A DNA stretch of 64,000 bases from Oceanobacillus senegalensis (lineage in GTDB: Bacteria; Bacillota; Bacilli; Bacillales; Amphibacillaceae). The notes below the pieces were generated by a model, which saw only the letters and a program-made list of their open reading frames with translations, was not told the origin of the DNA and ran no database searches. This document shows positions 10,139 through 32,718 of this stretch, piece by piece. Numbering within the stretch: the stretch's first letter is position 1; the number at the start of each line of letters is the position of its first letter. A program made the position numbers and the translations under genes. Where the stretch lies: NCBI RefSeq assembly GCF_900176885.1, contig NZ_LT839648.1, positions 4,191,359-4,255,358 on the forward strand, in the 5' to 3' direction.

Positions 10139-12103
10139 TTATTTTATCTCTTCAGCCAATGTTTTATATTCTTCCAGACATTCTGGGTTTACTAAAGAGG
10201 CTTTGTTTTTAACCTCCTGTCCGCGAACAATGGAACGAACGGCTCCTTCTACCTTTTTGCCGTTATTCGTATATGGAATTTCTTTTACAGCATAAATGTG
10301 GCGTGGAACATGGCGTGGTGATGCCTTTTTGCGTACATCACGGCGGATTTGTTCTGCTAGTTCCACATCCACTTCGCCATTCTCTGTAACAATGCACAAT
10401 GCGATTTCTTCATCATTTTCAATTGGAAAGCCAAACACAATGGAGTCTTTAATTTGTGGAATTTGCTCCACTACACGATAGATTTCCGCCGTTCCAATTC
10501 GAACTCCACCTGGATTCAGTACCGTATCCGTTCGGCCATAAATAATGAATGTACCCTCTATTGTTTGTTCCACTAAATCGCCGTGTGTCCAGATGCCCTC
10601 ATGCTTGGCAAAATAAGCGTTGTAATAACGATCGTCTCCACCTTCGCCCCAAAAAGTAAGTGGCATGCTTGGGAAGGGTTGCGTGCAAACTAACTCACCC
10701 TTTTTACCAATGACAGAAGCGCTTCGTTCATCTAAAATATCAACAGCCATACCGAGTGCCTTACATGTAATTTCCCCACGAATAACAGGGTGGATTGGCG
10801 TCCCCATGAAAAAGCAGCCCATAATTTCCGTGCCACCGGAAATGGATTCCAATAAGACATCTTTCTTGATTGTGTTATAAACCCAATCATATTGTTCACT
10901 AATGAGTGGCGAACCTGTCGTCATTACTACCTTTAGAGTAGACAAATTATGATTTTTACCAACTTGATACCCACATTTTTCCAATGAGGCAAGGTATTTT
11001 GGACTGGTACCAAAATGGGTAATACCAATCTCCTCGGCAATCTCCCATAGAATTCCGATGCGATCTTTCCGAATGGGTGAACCATCATAAAGTAAAATAG
11101 CGGCATCACTTGCCAGGCCAGAGACAAGCCATGGGAACATCATCCATGACGTACTTGAATACCATGATAAAACATCACCCTGCTTTACATCTGAGTGCAA
11201 CTGATGCTCTTTCACATGCTGGAGCAATACGCCACCGACAGATTGTACAATGCATTTTGGCATGCCTGTTGTTCCAGATGTATATAAGATATAAAGTGGA
11301 TGATGAAAGGCAACACGGGTGAAAGTTGGTACCTCTACATCATTTGCCAACAGTTCACTCCACGTTGACAACTGAGCACTAGACTCCACCGACAGCCCAG
11401 GTGTTTCCGATAAACTAACAACTGCAGACAAGCCTTTCAACTCCCTTATAACCGCTTGCACGTTGTCGCGGATATTAAAAGGTTTTCCGTTATACTGATA
11501 ATCAAGGGAAGCTATTAGTACTTTTGGTTGGACTTGACCGATGCGATCGATAATTCCCTTAGCACCAAAGTCAGGTGAACACGAGCTCCAAACGGCACCA
11601 AGTGAAGTTGTCGCAAGGAGTGCAACTAGTGATTGCACGTCATTCTTCACAATCCCTGCGACACGATCTCCTTTTTTTACGCCAAGTTTACGTAAGCCTG
11701 TTTGTGCCTTTGCAACCAAGCTGCGCAAATCTTCCATCTTCACCGCCCGTTGAATGCCTTCTTCATTAGCTTCATAAACAGCAATGCGAGAACCGTTTCC
11801 ACGTAATAGATTTTCTGCCAGATTTAAGCTTGCTTCTGGAAACCACTTTGCCCCCAACATACCGCCATCTTCTGCCGGAACGAAGATAGTTTCACCCTTT
11901 TCTCCTATAATGCCAGCGAAATCCCAAACCGCTGACCAAAACGCTTCTGGCTTTACGATGGACCAACGATGCAGGCGTTCATAGGGATGGACTGGAATTC
12001 CTACTTGTTCTGAAAACTTTTTTATATTTGATTTGGACACTCGCTGTTCGGAAGGTTGCCATAGTATATGGTTATCGATTTCTCTCGTCTGTTGTTCTAT
12101 CAT
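10139..12103 (-). CDS. Acetoacetate-CoA ligase (acetoacetyl-CoA synthetase)
   Basis: The 654-residue protein matches the acetoacetyl-CoA synthetase family in length and order: an acetyl-CoA-synthetase-type N-terminal segment (LWQPSEQRVSKSNIKKF), the AMP-binding loop LYILYTSGTTGMPKCIVQS near residue 275, the ISGGTEIMGCF core motif, the hinge region HGDLVEQ...YGRTDTVLNPGGVR, and the C-terminal catalytic lysine in PYTNNGKKVE. It activates acetoacetate with ATP and CoA to acetoacetyl-CoA. The thiolase encoded upstream in the same direction would split that to two acetyl-CoA, and the symporter between them could import the acid. It is the last gene of the apparent operon, 35 bases after the symporter stop. 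Confidence 0.93.
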   Translation of the reverse strand: MIEQQTREIDNHILWQPSEQRVSKSNIKKFSEQVGIPVHPYERLHRWSIVKPEAFWSAVWDFAGIIGEKGETIFVPAEDGGMLGAKWFPEASLNLAENLLRGNGSRIAVYEANEEGIQRAVKMEDLRSLVAKAQTGLRKLGVKKGDRVAGIVKNDVQSLVALLATTSLGAVWSSCSPDFGAKGIIDRIGQVQPKVLIASLDYQYNGKPFNIRDNVQAVIRELKGLSAVVSLSETPGLSVESSAQLSTWSELLANDVEVPTFTRVAFHHPLYILYTSGTTGMPKCIVQSVGGVLLQHVKEHQLHSDVKQGDVLSWYSSTSWMMFPWLVSGLASDAAILLYDGSPIRKDRIGILWEIAEEIGITHFGTSPKYLASLEKCGYQVGKNHNLSTLKVVMTTGSPLISEQYDWVYNTIKKDVLLESISGGTEIMGCFFMGTPIHPVIRGEITCKALGMAVDILDERSASVIGKKGELVCTQPFPSMPLTFWGEGGDDRYYNAYFAKHEGIWTHGDLVEQTIEGTFIIYGRTDTVLNPGGVRIGTAEIYRVVEQIPQIKDSIVFGFPIENDEEIALCIVTENGEVDVELAEQIRRDVRKKASPRHVPRHIYAVKEIPYTNNGKKVEGAVRSIVRGQEVKNKASLVNPECLEEYKTLAEEIK

Positions 12104-12138: not shown

Positions 12139-13641
12139 TTATTTAGAAATAGTTAAAGATTCTTGCTGTTTGGTGGTTGCACTTTGCGTTGCCAAGCACG
12201 TAACTATCATTACAACAAACGCGGAAACAGACGCAAAGAACATGGCTAGATAAATATTTTCAATTATATTTTGGTTTGTAAAAATCACATACAGTACGGT
12301 ACCAGTAATTAAGGCAGCAATGGCACCAGGAGCGTTTGCCTTCTTCCAAAAGTATCCTAATATAACCGGAGCGATAATTCCGCAGATAATTGCTGAGAAA
12401 CTAAATTGAATTAAAATGGATAACGATTCCGGACGGTCTAAGGAAAGATATAATGTAGCTAAACCCGCCAGTACTAAGGACACCTTTGCTACTTTGACCG
12501 CATTCCTATCTAAAACCTTTTTAGTAATCGGCTTTTTCGATAAAATTGGTGCCAATACTTTGTAAAAATCGTTTCCAATACTTGTCGTCACCCCTAGGTA
12601 AAGACTATCCGTACTGGAGAGAATGGCTGAGATCAGTCCTACAACAATGATTGCCGCGATGATTGTTGGGAATGATTCAAGTACATAAACTGGAATCGCT
12701 GCATCCGCACTTGTTAAATACGGCGCAATCACCCGTGCTGCTAAGCCGCCAAGAACCATTAACGTTGAAATTAAAAATAAAATAACACCTGCTGATAATG
12801 TAAATGGAGCAAGCTGCTCTTCACTATCAAGTGACAATACTTTATTTAATAGATGTGGCATTAACACAAAGCTAAATAATAAAAATTGGACGGCCATGAT
12901 TGCTAGTGGAGTATCGTATGGACCTCCAACGGATAGAAAACCTGTTAGACTCGGATCTACCGCCTCAAGCTTGCTTGACAACTCTCCAAATACGTTTAGG
13001 CCGCCGCCAATCGTCCAAAATAACGAAATTAAAATAAGGATAGAAGTGATGGCCATCAAAACCCCTTGAACGCCGTCTGTGATAAGTTGTGCATAGGCAC
13101 CACCAAGTCCTATGTACAGAATCGTGATAAATACACCAATGATAATGCCCCAGAAATACGGGATGTTTAAGACGGATTCAAAGATAGTCGCTAGTCCTAC
13201 GTTTTGACCAACAATATAATACACGTTGAATAAAATTAATATTGCCACAAGCACTTGAAGTGTTTTGCTGTTGTATCTTCTTCCAAGCCATTCCGGCAAT
13301 GTGGAAACCCCACCAAACTTTTTACTGTATCTCCAGAACTTTTTAGCAAATAAAAGTAAACCAATCCACGAAACACCGAAACACCCTAATGTATACCAAA
13401 GCACTGATGTACCATATTCGTAAGCAAGCCCTGGAACACCGATAAATAAATTGGCACTTGCATACGAAGCTGCAAAACTTGCACCAACAATCACAGGATT
13501 TACTTTTCCACGAGCCGTTGCGAAGCCAGACATCGACTTACTGTGTTGATTTCCCTTTCTTCCAATCCAAACAACGACTCCAAAATACCCAATTAATAGA
13601 ATAATAATCGTCCAAAATAAAGGTCCTGTTATGGTAAGCAT
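12139..13641 (-). CDS. Sodium:solute symporter (SSS family)
   Basis: This 500-residue integral membrane protein has about 13 hydrophobic helices and the sodium:solute symporter pattern (GFATARGKVNPVIVGASFAASYASANLFIGVPG near the N-terminus; ISAILSSTDSLYLGVTTSIGNDFY in the middle). It probably imports a short organic acid such as acetoacetate, because it lies between thiolase and acetoacetate-CoA ligase; the substrate is inferred from context. The ATG overlaps the stop codon of a 37-residue accessory protein by one base (TAATG), implying translational coupling. A second, only distantly similar symporter occurs at 17494. Confidence 0.92.
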   Translation of the reverse strand: MLTITGPLFWTIIILLIGYFGVVVWIGRKGNQHSKSMSGFATARGKVNPVIVGASFAASYASANLFIGVPGLAYEYGTSVLWYTLGCFGVSWIGLLLFAKKFWRYSKKFGGVSTLPEWLGRRYNSKTLQVLVAILILFNVYYIVGQNVGLATIFESVLNIPYFWGIIIGVFITILYIGLGGAYAQLITDGVQGVLMAITSILILISLFWTIGGGLNVFGELSSKLEAVDPSLTGFLSVGGPYDTPLAIMAVQFLLFSFVLMPHLLNKVLSLDSEEQLAPFTLSAGVILFLISTLMVLGGLAARVIAPYLTSADAAIPVYVLESFPTIIAAIIVVGLISAILSSTDSLYLGVTTSIGNDFYKVLAPILSKKPITKKVLDRNAVKVAKVSLVLAGLATLYLSLDRPESLSILIQFSFSAIICGIIAPVILGYFWKKANAPGAIAALITGTVLYVIFTNQNIIENIYLAMFFASVSAFVVMIVTCLATQSATTKQQESLTISK

Positions 13642-13754
13642 TATTTATTAGACCCCTTTCTCTCTTTTGTTACATACGATTTTTTCCATATCAGTAAGCC
13701 AACTGCCCAGAATACGGCCAGCAGTAGAAAGTACGTTAATAGCATGATTTTCAT
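13641..13754 (-). CDS. Symporter small accessory protein (37 residues)
   Basis: A short ORF preceded by GGAGG (TGGAGGATGAAA, so the site is close to the ATG) encodes one membrane helix (MLLTYFLLLAVFWAVGLLIW) followed by a basic tail KKSYVTKERKGSNK. Its stop codon overlaps the symporter ATG. Tiny single-helix proteins encoded directly before sodium:solute symporters are a known class in Gram-positive bacteria; the close GGAGG spacing is a mild weakness. It may stabilise or assemble the symporter. Confidence 0.75.
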   Translation of the reverse strand: MKIMLLTYFLLLAVFWAVGLLIWKKSYVTKERKGSNK

Positions 13755-13803: not shown

Positions 13804-13834
13804 TGTGCACTTCGTTAAAAAAACGAAGTGCACA
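13804..13834. other. Perfect 13-bp hairpin between thiolase and symporter genes
   Basis: TGTGCACTTCGTT/AACGAAGTGCACA with a five-A loop lies 40 bases after the thiolase stop. Neither strand has a U-run right after the stem, so it does not look like a classical terminator; it could stabilise or process the message, or partly terminate it. Confidence 0.6.
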
Positions 13835-13874: not shown

Positions 13875-15038
13875 CTAGCTCTTTGGAACTTCGATTAAAA
13901 GGGCCATTCCTTGACCACCGCCACCGCAAAGGGAGGCAATCCCTTTTCCACCGCCGCGACGCTTCAGTTCTTTAACAACAGTTAAAGCAAGTCGGAATCC
14001 CGTTCCACCAAGCGGATGACCTACCGCAATCGCGCCACCATTGACATTCACCCTTTCATAGTCAATGCCAAGCTCACGGCAGCTTGCAATAACGACACTT
14101 GCAAAAGCCTCATTGATTTCAAAAAGATCAATATCGTCCAATGTTAGGTTTGTTTTCTCTAAAACTGCTTTAATTGCTTTGGCAGGCTTTGTATGTAAAC
14201 TCGTATCAGGGCCTGCGACTTCAACCCATCCAAGAATGCGTGCCAACGGTGTTATACCAAGCTCAAGCGCCTTCTTTTCGGATGAAACAATACCAACGCT
14301 TGCGCCATCAGTCATTTGCGAGGCATTTCCCGCTGTAATGGTACCTCCTTCTATAAATGCTGGTCTTAATTTCGCTAATTTTTCTTGCGTTGAATTAGGG
14401 CGAATACCTTCATCACCAGAAAGCGTCTTTCCATTCAGGGTAATCGGAACAATTTCTTCCTGCAGAATCCCTTTTTGAAGTGCCGCAGCAGCTCGTTCCT
14501 GCGATAATTGTGCGTATTGATCCTGTTCCTGTCTATCAATCTTAAAATCTTTATTTTTAAAATCAGTTAATACCCCCATCGAATTATCTGCTAATGAGCA
14601 CCATAACCCGTCGTTACTTAATGTATCCGTCAATTGTAGCGGTCCTATCGACTGTTCCTTTCGAATCGCAGCAGTGTACGGGGCATTTGTCATGGAATCA
14701 AATCCGCCCGTAATGTATAATTCGCCTTCACCAAAATGAATACGGCGGACAGCGTCAGATACAGATGCTAATCCAGCTAAACATACATTGTTCAATGTAC
14801 TTGCAGGGACAGTAAGCGATACACCAGCATCTGTCGCAACTCTCCTGGCTGGATTTTGACCTTGCCCCGCTTGAAGCACCTGTGCCAGTAAAACTCCATC
14901 TGCTTCTTTTGCCTCTGGTACTCGTTGCACTAACTCTTTAACAGCTAAAGTTCCTATTTCCTTTGCTTCTAATCCTGATAAAAATCCTTTCCACTTCCCA
15001 AAAGGTGTTCGAACTCCTTCTAATATCACCGTATTCAT
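13875..15038 (-). CDS. Thiolase (acetyl-CoA C-acetyltransferase type)
   Basis: The 387-residue protein has all three thiolase active-site blocks: the nucleophilic Cys in NNVCLAGLASV (about residue 88), the His in NGGAIAVGHPLGGTG, and the second Cys in GIASLCGGGGQGMALLIE at the C-terminus. It would cleave acetoacetyl-CoA to two acetyl-CoA, or run in reverse. It is the first gene of the minus-strand group with the symporter pair and acetoacetate-CoA ligase. A SAM-I riboswitch and terminator lie about 165-330 bases upstream on the same strand. Many thiolases act on longer chains, but the neighbourhood favours acetoacetyl-CoA. Confidence 0.93.
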   Translation of the reverse strand: MNTVILEGVRTPFGKWKGFLSGLEAKEIGTLAVKELVQRVPEAKEADGVLLAQVLQAGQGQNPARRVATDAGVSLTVPASTLNNVCLAGLASVSDAVRRIHFGEGELYITGGFDSMTNAPYTAAIRKEQSIGPLQLTDTLSNDGLWCSLADNSMGVLTDFKNKDFKIDRQEQDQYAQLSQERAAAALQKGILQEEIVPITLNGKTLSGDEGIRPNSTQEKLAKLRPAFIEGGTITAGNASQMTDGASVGIVSSEKKALELGITPLARILGWVEVAGPDTSLHTKPAKAIKAVLEKTNLTLDDIDLFEINEAFASVVIASCRELGIDYERVNVNGGAIAVGHPLGGTGFRLALTVVKELKRRGGGKGIASLCGGGGQGMALLIEVPKS

Positions 15039-15201
15039 ATTGCCTCATCCTTTCGTATAATCAAATCATTTTATTTTTAGAAAAATTAGCATTCCCTCGT
15101 GTTTTAAGGAATGGGCTAGTTTTTCTTATGATTGGGACATTTTTACTACGTGAAATCTTTTTCTTGAGCAAAATTTTATACCTTTTCCTAATGTGCATGT
15201 G

Positions 15202-15236
15202 CAAAGAAAAACCCTCTTTCCAAAAGAAAGAGGGTT
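15202..15236 (-). terminator. Intrinsic terminator of the SAM-I riboswitch
   Basis: Minus strand AACCCTCTTTC/GAAAGAGGGTT with a five-base loop, followed by TTTCTTT. It is the expression platform of the S-box. Confidence 0.9.
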
Positions 15237-15370
15237 GAAATCATAAATACATGATGTTTTCTCCCTCTTATCTTTCAGACACTTCTGCCTGTTGGAAGTA
15301 GCACCATTCCCTTAAAGGGCGGTTGCCGGGCGTCATAGGGCCAATTCCCTCAGCCAACTCGAGATAAGAG
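15202..15370 (-). promoter_or_regulatory. SAM-I (S-box) riboswitch with terminator
   Basis: On the minus strand the region has the S-box landmarks: P1 strand CTCTTATC (15363-15370), then GAGGGA, GGCCC, TATGACGCCCGGCAACC, AAGGG and GGTGC, and closing P1 strand GATAAGAG (15265-15272). About 30 bases later a strong hairpin with a U-run follows. In known examples SAM binding promotes termination, so genes are on when SAM is low. The next gene downstream on this strand is the thiolase, an unusual target since these riboswitches normally control methionine and sulfur genes. Confidence 0.93.
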
Positions 15371-15454
15371 TTATCTATTAAATTTGATTTATAGTTACAA
15401 AGTATCCGTTTATTAAATTATTGAAATATTAACAGAACACAAATAGAAAGTCAA

Positions 15455-15750
15455 GGGGACACGGGGTCAGGTTCCTCGTCCCGTATTTTTCCCCTTCTTA
15501 GACAAAAGCCCTGTGGTGTCGCAGGCCTTTTTTTTCTTTCTTTTAGAAAGTATGCCTTCCCTTCTTATATTAGCTACCAATAATAAGTTGCTCCATTTTT
15601 GAAGCGCATGTTGACGAATAAAAGGAATTCGCAAACGTATCGAGAACAGGTGCGTAAACGAAAAGAACCACAGGAAATAAAATCAAGCAATAGAACCTTT
15701 TTGCTAAAAATAGTTGGAAATGGGACAAGGAACCTGACCCTATGTACCCC
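15455..15750 (+). repeat. Inverted-end repeat element, copy C (complete)
   Basis: A complete 296-bp copy. The left end (15455-15482, ggggacacggggtcaggttc) and right end (15722-15750) are inverted repeats of each other, and each end also has GGGAC...GTCCC symmetry, so each could form a small hairpin. The interior carries a hairpin-T tract after the left end (aaaagccctgtggtgtcgc). Apparent ORFs inside have no ribosome-binding site. Confidence 0.85.
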
Positions 15751-15981
15751 TATTGTATACAAACTACCCATTTATAAAATAATCCTATTTTTATAGAAAT
15801 GAACAAACTCAATAATATCAAGGGTTAATCGGTGTTGTTCTTTATTTTTATGTAAATTTTCAAAATCTTTATTGACGGTTTGGATACAATGTGGTAATTT
15901 TTTTATAAATCTTAATTTACTAAAAAATCTTATTAATCAATTAAGATTTTAAGCTTTAACGATAATCTTGGAGGTATGAAC

Positions 15982-17190
15982 ATGGGAGAGGAAAAAGAAA
16001 GGTTACCACTAGAAGGCATTAGGGTGTTGGAATTAGGAACATTGCTTGCTGGACCATTTACTGGACGACTTTTAGGAGATTTTGGTGCAGAAATCATCAA
16101 AATTGAAGCTCCAGATAAAGCGGATCCATTGCGCGAGTGGGGACAGGAAAAGGATGGTGTTGGACTATGGTGGCCCATACAATCACGGAATAAAAAGTCA
16201 ATTACGTTGAATTTGCGTTTGGAAGAAGGACAGGAAACTTTTAAGGAATTAGTGAAAAAGTCAGATATTATTATTGAAAATTTTCGTCCAGGAACAATGG
16301 AGAAGTGGAATCTCTCGTATGAAGAGCTATCTGAAATCAATCCAGGGATTATCATGACCAGAACTTCAGGATACGGACAGACCGGTCCTTATAAGGAAAG
16401 AGCTGGATTTGGTAGTGTAGGAGAAGCTATGGGAGGTATACGGTATGTAACAGGGTTCCCGGATCGTGCTCCATCAAGAATTGGAATTTCGATTGGGGAT
16501 ACCTTAGCTGCGCTTTTTGCAACAATCGGAACGTTAACAGCACTTAATGAACGTCATCATTCTGGCAAAGGACAGATAGTGGATACAGCAATATATGAAT
16601 CCGTATTTTCTGTGATGGAAAGTTTAATTCCAGATTATCTTCTTGCAGGATATATCCGTGAACGTATGGGAAATATCTTGCCAAACGTTGCCCCTTCTAA
16701 TATTTATTTTACGAAAGATGAAACGTATATCGTCATTGGTGCCAATGCAAACGGGGTGTTTAAGCGATTATGTGAGGCAATGGGGGATCCGGAATTATTT
16801 GAAAATCCGAAATTCCATACCCATTTAGCAAGAGGGGAAAATCAAACAGAACTGGATGAAATCATTGAAGGCTGGACAAAGCAACATGATTCCAAAGAAA
16901 TCCTTGATTTACTGGCTAAAAAGGGCGTGCCATCAGGTCTCATCTATTCTGCAAAAGATATTGTAGAAGACCCGCATTACCAGGAAAGGGAAATGATCAT
17001 CAAAAAGGAACATCCGCAAATAGGAGAGTTTCCAATGCCTGGGGTCGTACCTAAATTAAGTAGAACACCTGGTCAAGTGAAATCAGTGGGTGCGGAGTCC
17101 ATTGGTAAGCATAATGAAGAGGTTTATTGTGGTCTACTAAACTATGATGTGGAAAGGTTCCATGGATTAAAAGAGAAGAATGTTATTTAA
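15982..17190 (+). CDS. CaiB/BaiF family CoA-transferase
   Basis: The 402-residue product is a class III CoA-transferase: LEGIRVLELGTLLAGPFTGRLLGDFGAEIIKIE at the N-terminus, QSRNKKSITLNL, NFRPGTMEKW and SGYGQTGPYKERAGF are family hallmarks. Asp-173 in ISIGDTLAAL falls where the catalytic aspartate (Asp-169 of formyl-CoA transferase) is expected. It moves CoA between carboxylic acids. In this cluster it would activate the imported acid; the human relative SUGCT accepts glutarate and 3-hydroxy-3-methylglutarate. The ATG at 15982 is preferred over 15976 because GGAGG is then correctly spaced. It is the first gene of the cluster. Confidence 0.92.
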   Translation: MGEEKERLPLEGIRVLELGTLLAGPFTGRLLGDFGAEIIKIEAPDKADPLREWGQEKDGVGLWWPIQSRNKKSITLNLRLEEGQETFKELVKKSDIIIENFRPGTMEKWNLSYEELSEINPGIIMTRTSGYGQTGPYKERAGFGSVGEAMGGIRYVTGFPDRAPSRIGISIGDTLAALFATIGTLTALNERHHSGKGQIVDTAIYESVFSVMESLIPDYLLAGYIRERMGNILPNVAPSNIYFTKDETYIVIGANANGVFKRLCEAMGDPELFENPKFHTHLARGENQTELDEIIEGWTKQHDSKEILDLLAKKGVPSGLIYSAKDIVEDPHYQEREMIIKKEHPQIGEFPMPGVVPKLSRTPGQVKSVGAESIGKHNEEVYCGLLNYDVERFHGLKEKNVI

Positions 17191-17239
17191 TTTTTAAAAT
17201 GGGAAAGCGGATTATGAATTTGGGGAGAGGAGTATGTGT

Positions 17240-17497
17240 ATGAGGGATAAACCAGTCAAAGAGCCAATACGGAAAAAATGGATATGGATTGTTTTAGTAT
17301 TCATTGTTCTTGGAAATGTACCATGGTATCTACCAGCAGGAACCTTTGAGCCTTTAATTTTAGGAATTCCTTATTGGGCCTTTATTGTTGTCTTATTTTC
17401 CATCATTTTATGTGGATATTTAAGCTGGCTTTGTATAACGGAATGGCACATTGTGGAATCAGAAGAGGAGAATGAAAAAAAGGAGGGTGATGCATGA
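17240..17497 (+). CDS. Small membrane protein paired with symporter (DUF3311-like)
   Basis: This 85-residue protein has two hydrophobic helices (WIWIVLVFIVLGNVPWYLPA and AFIVVLFSIILCGYLSWLC) joined by a loop containing the PLILGIPYWAF pattern reminiscent of DUF3311 small subunits, plus an acidic tail. The gene overlaps the symporter start by four bases (ATGA), implying coupling. It is probably the accessory subunit of the symporter that follows. The ATG at 17240 is better spaced from GGAGAGGAG than the one at 17234. Confidence 0.8.
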   Translation: MRDKPVKEPIRKKWIWIVLVFIVLGNVPWYLPAGTFEPLILGIPYWAFIVVLFSIILCGYLSWLCITEWHIVESEEENEKKEGDA

Positions 17498-18990
17498 GTG
17501 ATTTAGTTTTTGCTGGTTTGGATGGGGTTATTATTCTCATTGTTTATGCGGCGATAATGTTATTAATTGGGTACTTATCGGGTCGTAAAGATAAGAATTT
17601 ACATGAAAGTTTAGGAAATTACTACTTAGCTGGGAAAAATCTTGGTTTTATCGCATTATTTTTCACCCTTTATGCGACACAGTATAGTGGAAATACCATT
17701 ATCGGATATGCGCCAACTGCTTATCGAACAGGGTTTGTTTGGCTTCAGTCCATTTCTTTTATGACTATTATCATTGGCGTTTATCTTCTGTTTGCTCCTA
17801 GGTTATATGTCATCTCGAAAAGAAGGAATTTTATTACCCCAACAGATTGGATTAGCTTCCGTTTTAACTCGAAACGTGTAACCATCCTAGCCATTTTACT
17901 CATGCTTTGGGGGTTGGGAAATTACCTATTAGAACAGCTCGTAGCTATTGGTCAGGCTGTTGCTGGTTTAACCGGAGGAACCATCCCATATCAATTAGCT
18001 GTGGTTGCTTTTGTTCTCGTTATGTTGACGTATGAATGGCTAGGTGGAATGAAAGCAGTAGCCTTTACCGATGTCATGCAAGGACTGGTATTAATGGTGG
18101 GAATATTTATCTTCTTGGGTGGTGCATTTTATTTAGTTGGTGGTGATATAGGAGCGGTTACACAGCAAATTGCCCAAACAGAACCTGTGAAGGTCGGTGT
18201 ACCAGAACTGATGACATCCGTTAATTGGCTAAGTATGATTCTTTTAGTAGGTTTTGGTGCAGCCATTTATCCGCATGCGGTACAACGGATTTATTCGGCT
18301 GAAAGTGAGCGTACCTTAAAACGATCGTTTGCAAGAATGGCTTGGATGCCACCCATTACAACGGGATTAGTTTTTATCATTGGAATTTTTGGGCTAGCTT
18401 TAATTCCAGGGTTAAATGAAGGAGAGTCTGAACAGATTGTCGGAATGCTTGCAAATGAAATTGCGGCCATTAATGGATTCTTTTACTGGGTAATGATTAT
18501 CTTTTTTGGTGCGATTGTTGCAGCGATTATATCAACAGCTGACTCTGTATTGCTTAGTTTTTCATCGTTAATCTCGAATGATGTCTATGGGAAATATATT
18601 AATCCAAATGCGAAGGAGAAGAAGAAGGTTTTAGTAGGAAAAGTCGTTGGAATCATAGCTGTCGGTGTTTTATTAATGATTGCCTGGAATCCACCTGGTA
18701 CGCTCTATCAAATTTTTGTATTGAAATTTGAATTGTTGGTGCAAGTTTTCCCGGCGTTCGTTCTTGGTTTGTACTGGAAGCGAATGGCAGCAGGGCCTGT
18801 ATTCTGGGGAATGTTAATCGGTGCAATGGTTTCTGGTGTGTTGACATTAACAGGGAATAGCACCTTGATGGGTATTCATGGCGGGGTTATTGGACTAGCC
18901 ATTAACTTCCTTATCGCAGTAATTGGATCCTATTTAATACCGATGACAAGTGAAAAAGAAGAAGAACTTCAGAAAATAAATTTAGCTTAA
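17494..18990 (+). CDS. Sodium:solute symporter (SSS family)
   Basis: A 498-residue polytopic membrane protein with about 13 helices. YYLAGKNLGFIALFFTLYATQYSG near the N-terminus and FFGAIVAAIISTADSVLLSFSSLIS in the middle fit the SSS fold, including the Ser/Thr-Asp sodium-site region. It is coupled to the small membrane protein upstream and followed by the flavin reductase after 15 bases. In this cluster it most likely imports the acid activated by the CoA-transferase. The substrate is not readable from sequence; it is only distantly similar to the symporter at 12139. Confidence 0.92.
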   Translation: MSDLVFAGLDGVIILIVYAAIMLLIGYLSGRKDKNLHESLGNYYLAGKNLGFIALFFTLYATQYSGNTIIGYAPTAYRTGFVWLQSISFMTIIIGVYLLFAPRLYVISKRRNFITPTDWISFRFNSKRVTILAILLMLWGLGNYLLEQLVAIGQAVAGLTGGTIPYQLAVVAFVLVMLTYEWLGGMKAVAFTDVMQGLVLMVGIFIFLGGAFYLVGGDIGAVTQQIAQTEPVKVGVPELMTSVNWLSMILLVGFGAAIYPHAVQRIYSAESERTLKRSFARMAWMPPITTGLVFIIGIFGLALIPGLNEGESEQIVGMLANEIAAINGFFYWVMIIFFGAIVAAIISTADSVLLSFSSLISNDVYGKYINPNAKEKKKVLVGKVVGIIAVGVLLMIAWNPPGTLYQIFVLKFELLVQVFPAFVLGLYWKRMAAGPVFWGMLIGAMVSGVLTLTGNSTLMGIHGGVIGLAINFLIAVIGSYLIPMTSEKEEELQKINLA

Positions 18991-19005
18991 CCAGGAGGGA
19001 GTCCG

Positions 19006-19611
19006 GTGGATATTGATTTACGAGATTTAGAAACAAAACAGGCATACAAACTGATGACAGGGTCTGTTGTACCTCGACCTATTGCTTGGGTGTCGACCAT
19101 GGACCAAAGCGGTAATCATAATCTAGCACCTTTTAGTTTTTTTACCGTTGCCTCTAGAAATCCACCAATGTTACTTATTTCCATTGGTCCTGGTGTCGGC
19201 GAACGGGAAGGTACTGTTAAAGATACGTTATCTAATATTCGGCAGTTGAAACAATTTGTTATCAATATTGTTCCTGCATCATTAGGAAATCCAATGCAAA
19301 AAAGCGCAGAAAACGTACAAAGGGAAACAGACGAATTTAGCTATGCAGGATTAACACCGGTTCAAAGTAAGAAGGTTCGACCACCAAGGGTAAAAGAGTC
19401 CCCCATTTCTTTTGAGTTAGAACTGAATCATATCATGGAACTAGGGAGTGATCATGTAGTTATCGGTCATATTGTTCATTATCATATCGATGACGATTAT
19501 TATCTCGGAAACGATAAAGTAAACCAAGAAAAACTAAGTCCCCTTGGTCGCCTAGCAGGAACGTATAGTGAAATCAGTGATATTTTTACACTTCCAAGGA
19601 GAGAGGAGTAA
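19006..19611 (+). CDS. Flavin reductase family (FMN-binding) protein
   Basis: This 201-residue protein belongs to the split-barrel flavin reductase family: YKLMTGSVVPRPIAWVSTMD, HNLAPFSFFTVASRNPPMLLIS and the C-terminal LSPLGRLAGTYSEI are typical. Start is GTG behind CCAGGAGGGAG. Members either reduce FMN for a partner or bind flavin for their own reaction. Its place between the symporter and the HMG-CoA-lyase-like gene suggests a redox step in the same pathway, which I cannot define. A related gene sits in the mhq-like island at 41186. Confidence 0.88.
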   Translation: MDIDLRDLETKQAYKLMTGSVVPRPIAWVSTMDQSGNHNLAPFSFFTVASRNPPMLLISIGPGVGEREGTVKDTLSNIRQLKQFVINIVPASLGNPMQKSAENVQRETDEFSYAGLTPVQSKKVRPPRVKESPISFELELNHIMELGSDHVVIGHIVHYHIDDDYYLGNDKVNQEKLSPLGRLAGTYSEISDIFTLPRREE

Positions 19612-19615
19612 CGAG

Positions 19616-20524
19616 ATGGATAAACCAAAAATCCACCTTACTGATGTAACAGGTCGTGATGGGTTTCAGATGGAGAAGGAATGGATTGAAACAGAAGATA
19701 AAATCCATATTTTAAACCGAATTATTGGATCAGGAATAAAGAGAATAGAGGCTACTTCTTTTGTTTCACCGAAAGCGATACCACAATTAAAAGATGCAAA
19801 AGAAGTTGTCCGAGAGCTTCATCGTGACCATGTGGAAGTAATGGCACTTGTCCCCAATCTTAAAGGTGCCGAGTTGGCATTGGATTCAGGTGTCGATGTA
19901 GTAAATGTCGTTCTGTCTATTAGCGAGACCCATAACAAGAAAAATGTAAACAAAACGGTTAGTGAATCGTTAGAAAATGTAACGGCTATTCATCATTTAG
20001 TAAGGGATCAATACAAGAAACTAAATGTTAGCCTTGGAACAACTTTCGGATGTCCTTTTGAAGGGCTGTACCATGTTGAAAAAGTGTCAACCATTATTTC
20101 TAAACTTCATTCGGAAGGAATCAATCAAATTACATTAGCAGATACGACAGGCATGGCAAACCCTACTCAAATTAGTAGATTTGTAGAAACCTTAACAAAG
20201 CAGTATCCGGATATTCAATTCAGTCTACATTTACACAATACAAGGGGAATGGGTCTAGTAAATCTCTATGCTGGATATCATGCAGGGATTCGGCATTTTG
20301 ATGCAGCACTTGGTGGTATTGGTGGATGTCCATTCGCTCCAGGGGCAACAGGAAATGTCTGTTTAGAAGATATTGTTCATATGCTTGATTTGATGAACAT
20401 TCCTAATGACCCAGATATGAATAAGTTAATCCATACCTCGAAAGAATTAGAACGTATATTAGGATACAAATTATCAGGACAAGTCATGAAAGCTGGTTTG
20501 GCTAATGAAGTAGTACCAGTATAA
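19616..20524 (+). CDS. Hydroxymethylglutaryl-CoA lyase-like enzyme
   Basis: The 302-residue product is a TIM-barrel lyase of the HMG-CoA lyase group. The signature GIGGCPFAPGATGNVCLED carries the conserved catalytic-loop Cys, and the metal-site HLHNTRG motif is present. The N-terminal motif reads DVTGRDGFQMEKEW rather than the usual EVGPRDGLQNE, so it may act on HMG-CoA or on another 3-hydroxy-3-methylacyl-CoA. HMG-CoA cleavage gives acetyl-CoA and acetoacetate, which is the substrate of the ligase encoded nearby. The ATG at 19616 sits behind GAGAGGAG and just after the flavin-reductase stop; a longer frame exists but overlaps that gene. Confidence 0.9.
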   Translation: MDKPKIHLTDVTGRDGFQMEKEWIETEDKIHILNRIIGSGIKRIEATSFVSPKAIPQLKDAKEVVRELHRDHVEVMALVPNLKGAELALDSGVDVVNVVLSISETHNKKNVNKTVSESLENVTAIHHLVRDQYKKLNVSLGTTFGCPFEGLYHVEKVSTIISKLHSEGINQITLADTTGMANPTQISRFVETLTKQYPDIQFSLHLHNTRGMGLVNLYAGYHAGIRHFDAALGGIGGCPFAPGATGNVCLEDIVHMLDLMNIPNDPDMNKLIHTSKELERILGYKLSGQVMKAGLANEVVPV

Positions 20525-20686
20525 ACGTTTTCAAGACATAGAGCTTCGAAAAGAAATTGGAGAAACTACCATTGTAAAAGGATAAACCGTTTGAAATCGA
20601 ATGGGAAGAACTTGATTTTATGCGGTTTTCTTTTTATGCTTTGCATACAAGTTTTCAATCTATGGGTCTGTCTACTTATATTATGG

Positions 20687-20716
20687 ATTGTATTCTTCTA
20701 TTCGTTTACATACAAT
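20687..20716. promoter_or_regulatory. Possible GntR operator (inverted repeat)
   Basis: ATTGTAT and ATACAAT are separated by 16 bases immediately upstream of the gntR ribosome-binding site. A half-site (ggatacaatg, about 15890) occurs upstream of the CoA-transferase gene. FadR-type regulators often bind such inverted repeats near their own gene, though usually with a shorter spacer. Prediction only. Confidence 0.35.
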
Positions 20717-20736
20717 AAAAGCAGGAGGCAGTTGCA

Positions 20737-21372
20737 ATGGATCCATTTAATTATATGAAGAATGCGATTATTACAGGGGAATATAAACCAGGTAAACGAT
20801 TAACGGAAGAGGCACTAGCAAAGGAATTAAACATGAGCCGTACACCAATACGTGAAGCTATTAATCAATTAAAAAATGATGGGCTTGTAACACCACTGAA
20901 GAGGGGCGTTGTCGTTCGCGAGTTTACCAAGCATGATGTTCTTCAAATCTATGATTTACGTGCACTACTTGAGGGATATGCGGCTAGTCAAGCTGCATCT
21001 TATCGATCTCTAGATGATATAGAAAAAATGATGGTTACCAATCAAAACTATCGAGAAGTAATCCGTGATTTGAATGACGAAAATAGAAGTTCCAAAGTTC
21101 CATCTATCGTTCAGGCTAATCAAGCTTTTCATAAATCCATTCTTGAAGCATCAAACAATGATTATATTTCATTTCATTTATCTAAAGCTGTAGTCATCCC
21201 ACTTGTCTTTCAGTCATTTTCCTGGTATAGCATTTCCGAAATCAATCGTTCCTTTGAAGTCCATGAAACGATTCTCTCCGCTATCGAACGCCAAGAATCG
21301 GAACGCGCTAAAATAGCTATGCAGGAGCATATTTATACAGGACGAGATCACGTATTGAAACATATTGATTGA
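20737..21372 (+). CDS. GntR-family regulator, FadR/FCD type
   Basis: This 211-residue protein has an N-terminal winged HTH (AIITGEYKPGKRLTEEALAKELNMSRTPIREAINQLKNDGLV) followed by an all-helical FCD ligand domain (IYDLRALLEGYAASQAA..., NQAFHKSILEASNN..., HETILSAIERQESERAKIAMQEHI) with the Asp and His residues that usually bind a metal and carboxylate ligand. It is the probable local regulator of the upstream CoA-transferase/symporter/lyase cluster, responding to an organic acid or acyl-CoA. ATG with AGGAGG. Repeat copy D begins two bases after its stop. Confidence 0.9.
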   Translation: MDPFNYMKNAIITGEYKPGKRLTEEALAKELNMSRTPIREAINQLKNDGLVTPLKRGVVVREFTKHDVLQIYDLRALLEGYAASQAASYRSLDDIEKMMVTNQNYREVIRDLNDENRSSKVPSIVQANQAFHKSILEASNNDYISFHLSKAVVIPLVFQSFSWYSISEINRSFEVHETILSAIERQESERAKIAMQEHIYTGRDHVLKHID

Positions 21373-32509: not shown

Positions 32510-32622
32510 TGTTGGTATAATGGTTAAATGATTTTTAGGATGCTAAATTATTAAGTCAGAATGGTATTGTAGTTGACAGTTTCCAAACAATTATCAATAA
32601 TTTAGCTATAATTACTAAACAA

Positions 32623-32718
32623 AATAGGTGATGGAGTTCACCATAAACCGCCCGTATGAGGCTGATGACTCCTGCCAAAGATAAAAGGGATACCTATGTC
32701 TTTTGGCAGGAGTCCTTT
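32623..32718 (+). promoter_or_regulatory. Fluoride (crcB) riboswitch with terminator
   Basis: GGTGATGGAGTTCACC, then AACCGCC, then GAGGCTGATGACTCCT is the fluoride aptamer core. The 3' part GACTCCTGCCAAAG pairs with CTTTTGGCAGGAGTC followed by CTTTTATTTTTTT, an alternative terminator. Fluoride binding prevents termination in known examples. TATAAT at 32607 may be the -10. The two genes downstream are crcB fluoride exporters, the canonical targets. Confidence 0.96.

Follow-up and report, generated by a model that had tools for sequence, protein, structure and literature searches.

A SAM-I riboswitch ahead of a thiolase and acetoacetate--CoA ligase operon in Oceanobacillus senegalensis and other Bacilli

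What is a SAM-I (S-box) riboswitch doing in front of genes for a thiolase, a sodium:solute symporter and an acetoacetate--CoA ligase? The question is raised by a locus of Oceanobacillus senegalensis, lying in a stretch of 64,000 nucleotides that we analysed as a whole and call the window. We know of no SAM-related role for acetoacetate. An earlier note, made from the sequence alone, had offered two readings: either SAM controls acetoacetate metabolism here, or the original methionine gene was lost and the riboswitch now sits before an unrelated operon. The features concerned are the following.

15426..15454, minus strand: sigma-A-type promoter-like site (TTGACT at 15454-15449, 17-nt spacer, TG-extended TAATAT at 15431-15426)
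15265..15370, minus strand: SAM-I (S-box) riboswitch aptamer (Rfam RF00162, complete model; ligand-contact residues kept)
15263..15269, minus strand: antiterminator 5' strand AAGAGGG, complementary to 15228-15234 and overlapping the 3' strand of P1
15228..15234, minus strand: antiterminator 3' strand CCCUCUU, shared with the terminator 5' arm
15202..15236, minus strand: intrinsic terminator with T-rich tail (stem 15236-15210, 12 pairs)
15090..15113, minus strand: second, weaker terminator-like hairpin, inside about 120 nt absent from loci L029 and L030
13875..15038, minus strand: thiolase, acetyl-CoA C-acyltransferase family (TIGR01930, 410.7 bits, cut-off 240.55)
13641..13754, minus strand: 37-aa membrane-like ORF from the ORF list (a similar short ORF precedes the symporter in L019, by eye)
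12139..13641, minus strand: SSS-family sodium:solute symporter (PF00474, 173.2 bits)
10139..12103, minus strand: acetoacetate--CoA ligase, divergent operon subfamily (TIGR01217, 716.4 bits, equivalog cut-off 520.9)

The aptamer and its terminator had been called complete by motif, and both calls hold. Aligned with the Rfam S-box model, 15370-15265 of the minus strand matches RF00162 over its full length (model positions 1-108) at 82.8 bits, above the gathering score of 44.4 (E 4.9e-18), and this S-box is one of 15 above the cut-off in the genome. The terminator stem at 15236-15210 completes a predicted expression platform in which P1 and the antiterminator are mutually exclusive. When the leader was folded under constraint, the antiterminator form reached -59.6 and the P1 plus terminator form -59.0 kcal/mol, a balance such as would be expected of a terminator switch. 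Over 15030-15480 the sequence has two terminator-like sites, where shuffled versions gave 0.4 on average. Elsewhere in the window, at 32618-32681 of the plus strand, there is a fluoride riboswitch (RF01734, 60.6 bits).

The promoter-like site upstream of the aptamer (15454-15426) has 9 of 12 consensus matches and is not significant alone. A pattern scan of 15030-15480 gave three matches over both strands against a shuffle mean of 1.7, so that a single match is weak; the two on the minus strand overlap each other at 15454-15425. By eye, a TTGAC...TG.TTA-like pattern occupies the same place in the sequence upstream of L030, L031, L037 and L146. An additional promoter had been suggested for the roughly 165 bases between terminator and thiolase, but the scan gave no promoter-like match on the minus strand of that gap. 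The gap is much shorter in the aligned same-genus loci L029 and L030, which lack about 120 nt of it. A 134-nt query spanning the gap had one other match in the genome, 69% identical. This extra leader sequence, with its second hairpin, might lower expression. On the other side of the leader, a transposon-like repeat with 28-nt inverted ends (15455-15749, plus strand) abuts the -35 box of the promoter-like site and leaves the box unbroken; of its 24 matches in the genome about a dozen are long, and many lie in or just before the window.

Downstream on the same strand come the thiolase, the 37-aa ORF, the symporter and the acetoacetate--CoA ligase, in that order. The short ORF had no family match in protein family model searches and is possibly a small partner of the symporter, for which all matched NCBIfam models scored below their own cut-offs. 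In the thiolase, the residues that we take to be catalytic (Cys86, Asn309, His341 and Cys371) are all present, including the Cys/His/Cys set of the family. A thiolase motif, AGPDxSL..(K/Q)P, was considered as a substrate signature and rejected; it is also common in 41-50% identical thiolases and not special to the operon. The ligase matches PDB entry 4wd1 (E 3e-144). The interval from thiolase to symporter is free of terminator-like sites, though a strong 13-pair hairpin without a T run is found between the thiolase and the 37-aa ORF (13804-13834, minus strand), and the 95-nt region around it has a folding z-score of -3.8.

A divergent gene run (15976-21372, plus strand) comprises a family III CoA transferase, a small ORF, an SSS symporter, a flavin-reductase-like protein, an HMG-CoA lyase family protein and a GntR-type regulator. 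The lyase family protein (NF004283, 301 bits, cut-off 246) would release acetoacetate beside the acetoacetate--CoA ligase operon. We take this neighbourhood to be a local feature, since the flanking genes differ in the relatives compared.

The S-box and the operon, in turn, recur together in relatives, whose flanking genes vary. A first thiolase search (98 genomes, our own included, E <= 1e-100) gave 13 matches, nine at 65-100% identity and four at 46-48% that served as controls. An order-wide thiolase profile search (397 genomes, our own included, E <= 1e-150) located the module at 31 loci in 29 genomes of 10 families. The module is thus patchy, as 29 of the 397 genomes of the order carry the thiolase. 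One or two S-boxes head the unit at 36 of 39 Bacilli thiolase loci, made up of 29 of the 31 order-wide loci, with all 29 genomes represented, and seven of eight further Bacilli loci outside that set. Both order-wide exceptions are second copies (genomes G302 and G345). The thiolase comes first at 21 of the S-box-bearing order-wide loci, or second after a molybdopterin oxidoreductase in G071; two are led by the ligase (G312, and G412 with two S-boxes) and six by metY. The extra S-box-bearing loci come from G003, G013, G042, Salinicoccus halitifaciens (L037), Sediminibacillus massiliensis (L038), Gracilibacillus suaedae (L041) and G. boraciitolerans (L042). According to NCBI taxonomy, Salinicoccus and Lentibacillus belong to the Bacilli, order Caryophanales. 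L039 and L040, whose contigs have the same lengths as those of L151 and L155 (records of G319 and G343), were taken to be duplicates and left out. A simple script delimited the operons by the order and spacing of their ORFs; its overlap filter may have omitted small genes.

The module typically pairs a thiolase with a transporter; most instances also have a divergent acetoacetate--CoA ligase, and many a second thiolase and a DUF35 protein. Its arrangement varies. In G108, G174 and G438 it is split: the thiolase stands alone behind one S-box, and in all three genomes ligase, second thiolase, DUF35 protein and symporter are found elsewhere behind two tandem S-boxes. In genus g108 (six of six genomes), two S-boxes are followed in the same direction by a metY-CoA_binding fusion, ligase, second thiolase, DUF35 protein, MFS transporter and thiolase. 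The lead gene of about 600 codons joins a metY-type enzyme (PF01053) to a CoA-binding domain (PF13380); from gene order and gaps, these genes are inferred to be co-transcribed. Relatives carrying a methionine gene at this place had been named as a finding that would speak against the association. Six genomes do have the metY fusion first, but the module follows it there. Split units that both carry S-boxes, together with metY-led operons, are hard to explain as hitch-hiking. S-box control is nevertheless not indispensable, given the two second copies without an S-box and G026, the eighth of the further loci, where the module lies behind a decayed aptamer (P1 3' strand and antiterminator region gone, core bases changed, terminator intact). 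It may also be broken in G312, where two transposase-like ORFs intervene between S-box and ligase operon (L238).

The pairing can be set against chance and against related loci. Ten operon-bearing genomes hold 112 S-boxes in about 40 Mb, a density at which a same-strand S-box would lie within 500 nt upstream of a random gene start in about 0.07% of cases. No S-box was found within 1.5 kb upstream at the four control loci with 46-48% identical thiolases from the same genus or family, nor at 17 canonical acetoacetate--CoA ligase loci hand-picked from 60 matches. A further 73 loci, mostly actinobacterial, had no S-box either, a weak control because their genomes may not use SAM-I at all. Our S-box model R1 was built partly from thiolase-operon S-boxes; the Rfam model alone finds the S-box at seven of eight thiolase loci and also in G180, G319 and G343.

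Of the two readings in the earlier note, SAM control of the operon is the one that gains strong support, on the grounds of conservation across families, unlinked units each with S-boxes and the upstream promoter-like site. We consider it very probable that a working transcription-termination-type SAM-I riboswitch controls the operon, that the module belongs stably to the methionine/SAM regulon of the Bacilli possessing it, and that its proteins import, activate and thiolyse a short beta-keto acid. From the aptamer, the expression platform and their conserved association with the genes, which are read directly from the DNA, we infer SAM binding, a start site, read-through and reactions as follows. 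Transcription would begin upstream of the aptamer. Plentiful SAM would stabilise P1 and keep the antiterminator from forming; the terminator hairpin at 15236-15210 would then switch the operon off. At low SAM the antiterminator would take over and let RNA polymerase through to the genes for thiolase, symporter and acetoacetate--CoA ligase. Their products would take up a short beta-keto acid (acetoacetate or something closely similar) and join it to CoA; thiolysis of the CoA-bound keto acid would yield acetyl-CoA and a second acyl-CoA. As the SAM switch lies ahead of the operon in nearly all examined relatives that have these genes, this little-studied keto-acid pathway is probably switched on at methionine shortage.

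The other reading, a riboswitch stranded before an unrelated operon after loss of its methionine gene, draws on the fact that the operon functions are not textbook methionine genes, and on a leader in which a transposon-like element abuts the promoter-like site and extra sequence follows the terminator. In relatives, however, the S-box is followed by the same thiolase; S-box and module stay together at 36 of 39 Bacilli loci while flanking genes differ, and split modules carry S-boxes on both units. The comparative counts rule out this reading as a general explanation, and we regard it as extremely improbable. An accidental neighbour being set aside, the aptamer could still have changed its ligand. 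Such a change has a precedent in spermidine riboswitches, which derive from SAM-I by alteration of SAM-contact positions, according to the part of PMC10853860 considered here, so the state of those positions matters. The gene association is unusual, and among 87 aligned S-boxes (42 ahead of the module, 45 elsewhere) a paired J1/2 and J3/4 variant (xCGAG with C in J3/4) marks 8 of the 42 module aptamers and none of the 45 others; J3/4 was misread at four of the latter (L006, L189, L191 and L202), none of which has the J1/2 variant. Against this, GCAAC, GTGC, the J1/2 G and the P1 U are kept in 42 of 42 module aptamers, the window's included, whereas the spermidine variants described in that part of the source are altered at such positions. 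We take these residues to contact SAM. In g108, moreover, the S-boxes stand before metY and the module together. A ligand-switched aptamer was consequently rejected on its intact contact residues, and is very unlikely. The carriers of the variant (the window, L030, L031, L032, L035, L037, L038 and L146) belong to more than one family, a distribution that points to joint transfer of aptamer and operon.

Apart from this subset, and apart from the genes regulated, the riboswitch resembles known SAM-I (RF00162): a complete aptamer, SAM-contact residues kept and a P1, antiterminator and terminator layout predicting OFF logic. A terminator-like hairpin follows 41 of 42 module aptamers and 25 of 26 aptamers of the tandem loci, and a crude script found an antiterminator run of at least 6 nt in 30 of 42. 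The window has a single aptamer, unlike the 13 of 29 tabulated loci that have two complete ones in tandem; tandem SAM-I riboswitches are known, and the part of PMC9481103 considered here counts 164 doubles.

That the operon belongs to acetoacetate metabolism, as the earlier note had it, is plausible but unproven, the operon ligase being of a divergent subfamily. Acetoacetate--CoA ligases occur in 82 of 397 genomes, with 86 matches in two score classes: 60 reach 775-898 bits, and the other 26 reach 680-745. As no more than two candidates were scored in each genome, a missing match does not prove absence. Both classes are represented in the window genome, the operon copy at 716 bits and an 845-bit copy elsewhere, about 39% identical. 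While exceeding the equivalog cut-off like known acetoacetate--CoA ligases (TIGR01217; PDB 4wd1), operon-type enzymes form a separate clade: in the ligase tree 32 of them stand apart from 17 canonical ones, to which they are 38-42% identical, and 24 positions differ consistently between the clades (L039, L040 and L042, with an incomplete ligase gene, and the fusion L147 were not included). In L033, L034, L038, L147 and L148 an acetate--CoA-ligase-like enzyme replaces the operon ligase, and L035 has thiolase, symporter and flavoprotein with no ligase alongside; one common substrate is therefore not assured. The transporter is of the SSS type in most operons and of the MFS type in g108, G312 and G412. 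As enzymes and transporters swap across operons, the recurring steps are import, CoA activation and thiolysis. In ketone-body or ato-type acetoacetate use, a transporter, CoA activation and a thiolase likewise come together, and in Ornithinicoccus (L043) the module, there without an S-box, adjoins a short-chain fatty acid transporter gene (PF02667, 431 bits). Here, in contrast, activation is by a CoA ligase and not a CoA transferase, and an S-box stands in front.

Might the substrate, then, be a sulfur- or methyl-bearing beta-keto acid instead of acetoacetate, with the operon salvaging organosulfur compounds for methionine synthesis under the same SAM control? Several operons carry genes in keeping with this: an acyl-CoA-dehydrogenase-type flavoprotein in five (L033, L035, L038, L147 and L148), an NlpA/MetQ-family lipoprotein (PF03180) in L033 and L147, and a molybdopterin oxidoreductase in L035 and L038. 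In L147 (G103) the lipoprotein gene follows a 1061-aa acyl-CoA ligase/flavoprotein fusion. The flavoproteins have 5gj7 and 5z8t as relatives, and their NCBIfam matches include 3-sulfinopropanoyl-CoA desulfinase, SfnB and DszC. The genome's own S-box regulon points the same way, with an SsuA-family binding protein and an SsuE-type FMN reductase, each above cut-off, and an NtaA/DmoA-family monooxygenase, also above cut-off, about 660 nt behind its S-box. So does the separation of the operon ligase clade from the same genome's canonical ligase. On the opposite side, the operon ligase exceeds the acetoacetate--CoA ligase equivalog cut-off, the Ornithinicoccus module adjoins a short-chain fatty acid transporter gene, and the sulfur-type additions are absent from the window and most tabulated operons. 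Their closest named models, moreover, are all below cut-off, far below for the flavoprotein, as are the specific MetQ models for the lipoprotein. We hold this reading to be possible but doubtful. A link between methyl supply and acetoacetate would also be provided by a carnitine route, in which a beta-keto acid cleavage enzyme (BKACE) makes acetoacetate and frees betaine for methionine synthesis, the operon recycling the acetoacetate. The chemistry is neat, but 13 of 25 operon-bearing genomes have this enzyme (PF05853), against 15 of 21 operon-free genomes of the same genera, and with no positive co-occurrence we rejected this route as hardly likely at all.

The same S-box regulon also includes an AhpD-domain protein (loci noted: L001, L002, L008, L013 and L015). 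By eye, L015 and the second gene of L008 seem to encode further monooxygenases. In another genome, G030, an S-box (L195) lies ahead of a short-chain dehydrogenase and an NhaC-like transporter gene.

The SAM-controlled import, activation and thiolysis of a short beta-keto acid could serve methionine metabolism either by supplying acetyl-CoA or by salvaging a keto acid that bears sulfur. Most simply, the acetyl-CoA would go into O-acetylhomoserine, since the operon of one genus begins with a metY-type gene; on reasoning alone, that demand seems small beside central metabolism. Tentatively, it can be proposed that the module imports a sulfur- or methyl-bearing beta-keto acid, that its own ligase clade activates it and that one or two thiolases cleave it, which would leave the half with the sulfur or methyl group for use in making methionine. 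This would be an undescribed branch of metabolism in Bacilli, including several salt-loving genera.

In full-text searches of a literature collection, judged by titles and term counts, we found no report joining a SAM riboswitch or S-box with thiolase, acetyl-CoA acetyltransferase, acetoacetyl-CoA synthetase or acetoacetate, and none on a pairing of sulfhydrylase with acetoacetyl-CoA synthetase, nor among Bacillales SAM regulons. The operon is not mentioned in the part of PMC9481103 considered here. The pairing may already be listed in RegPrecise or in the supplements of PMC3766115.

In summary, the riboswitch is ordinary and the content of the regulon is the news: on comparative evidence, the module is predicted to be a conserved member of the methionine/SAM regulon in the Bacilli that possess it. 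To our knowledge, such a role is absent from metabolic maps. Much can be learned about what genes do from the riboswitch that controls them, and a SAM link kept when the genes are split or when a metY-type gene leads suggests that the module plays a role in methionine/SAM balance. It thus offers a testable route to the substrate of an unstudied clade of ligases and thiolases.
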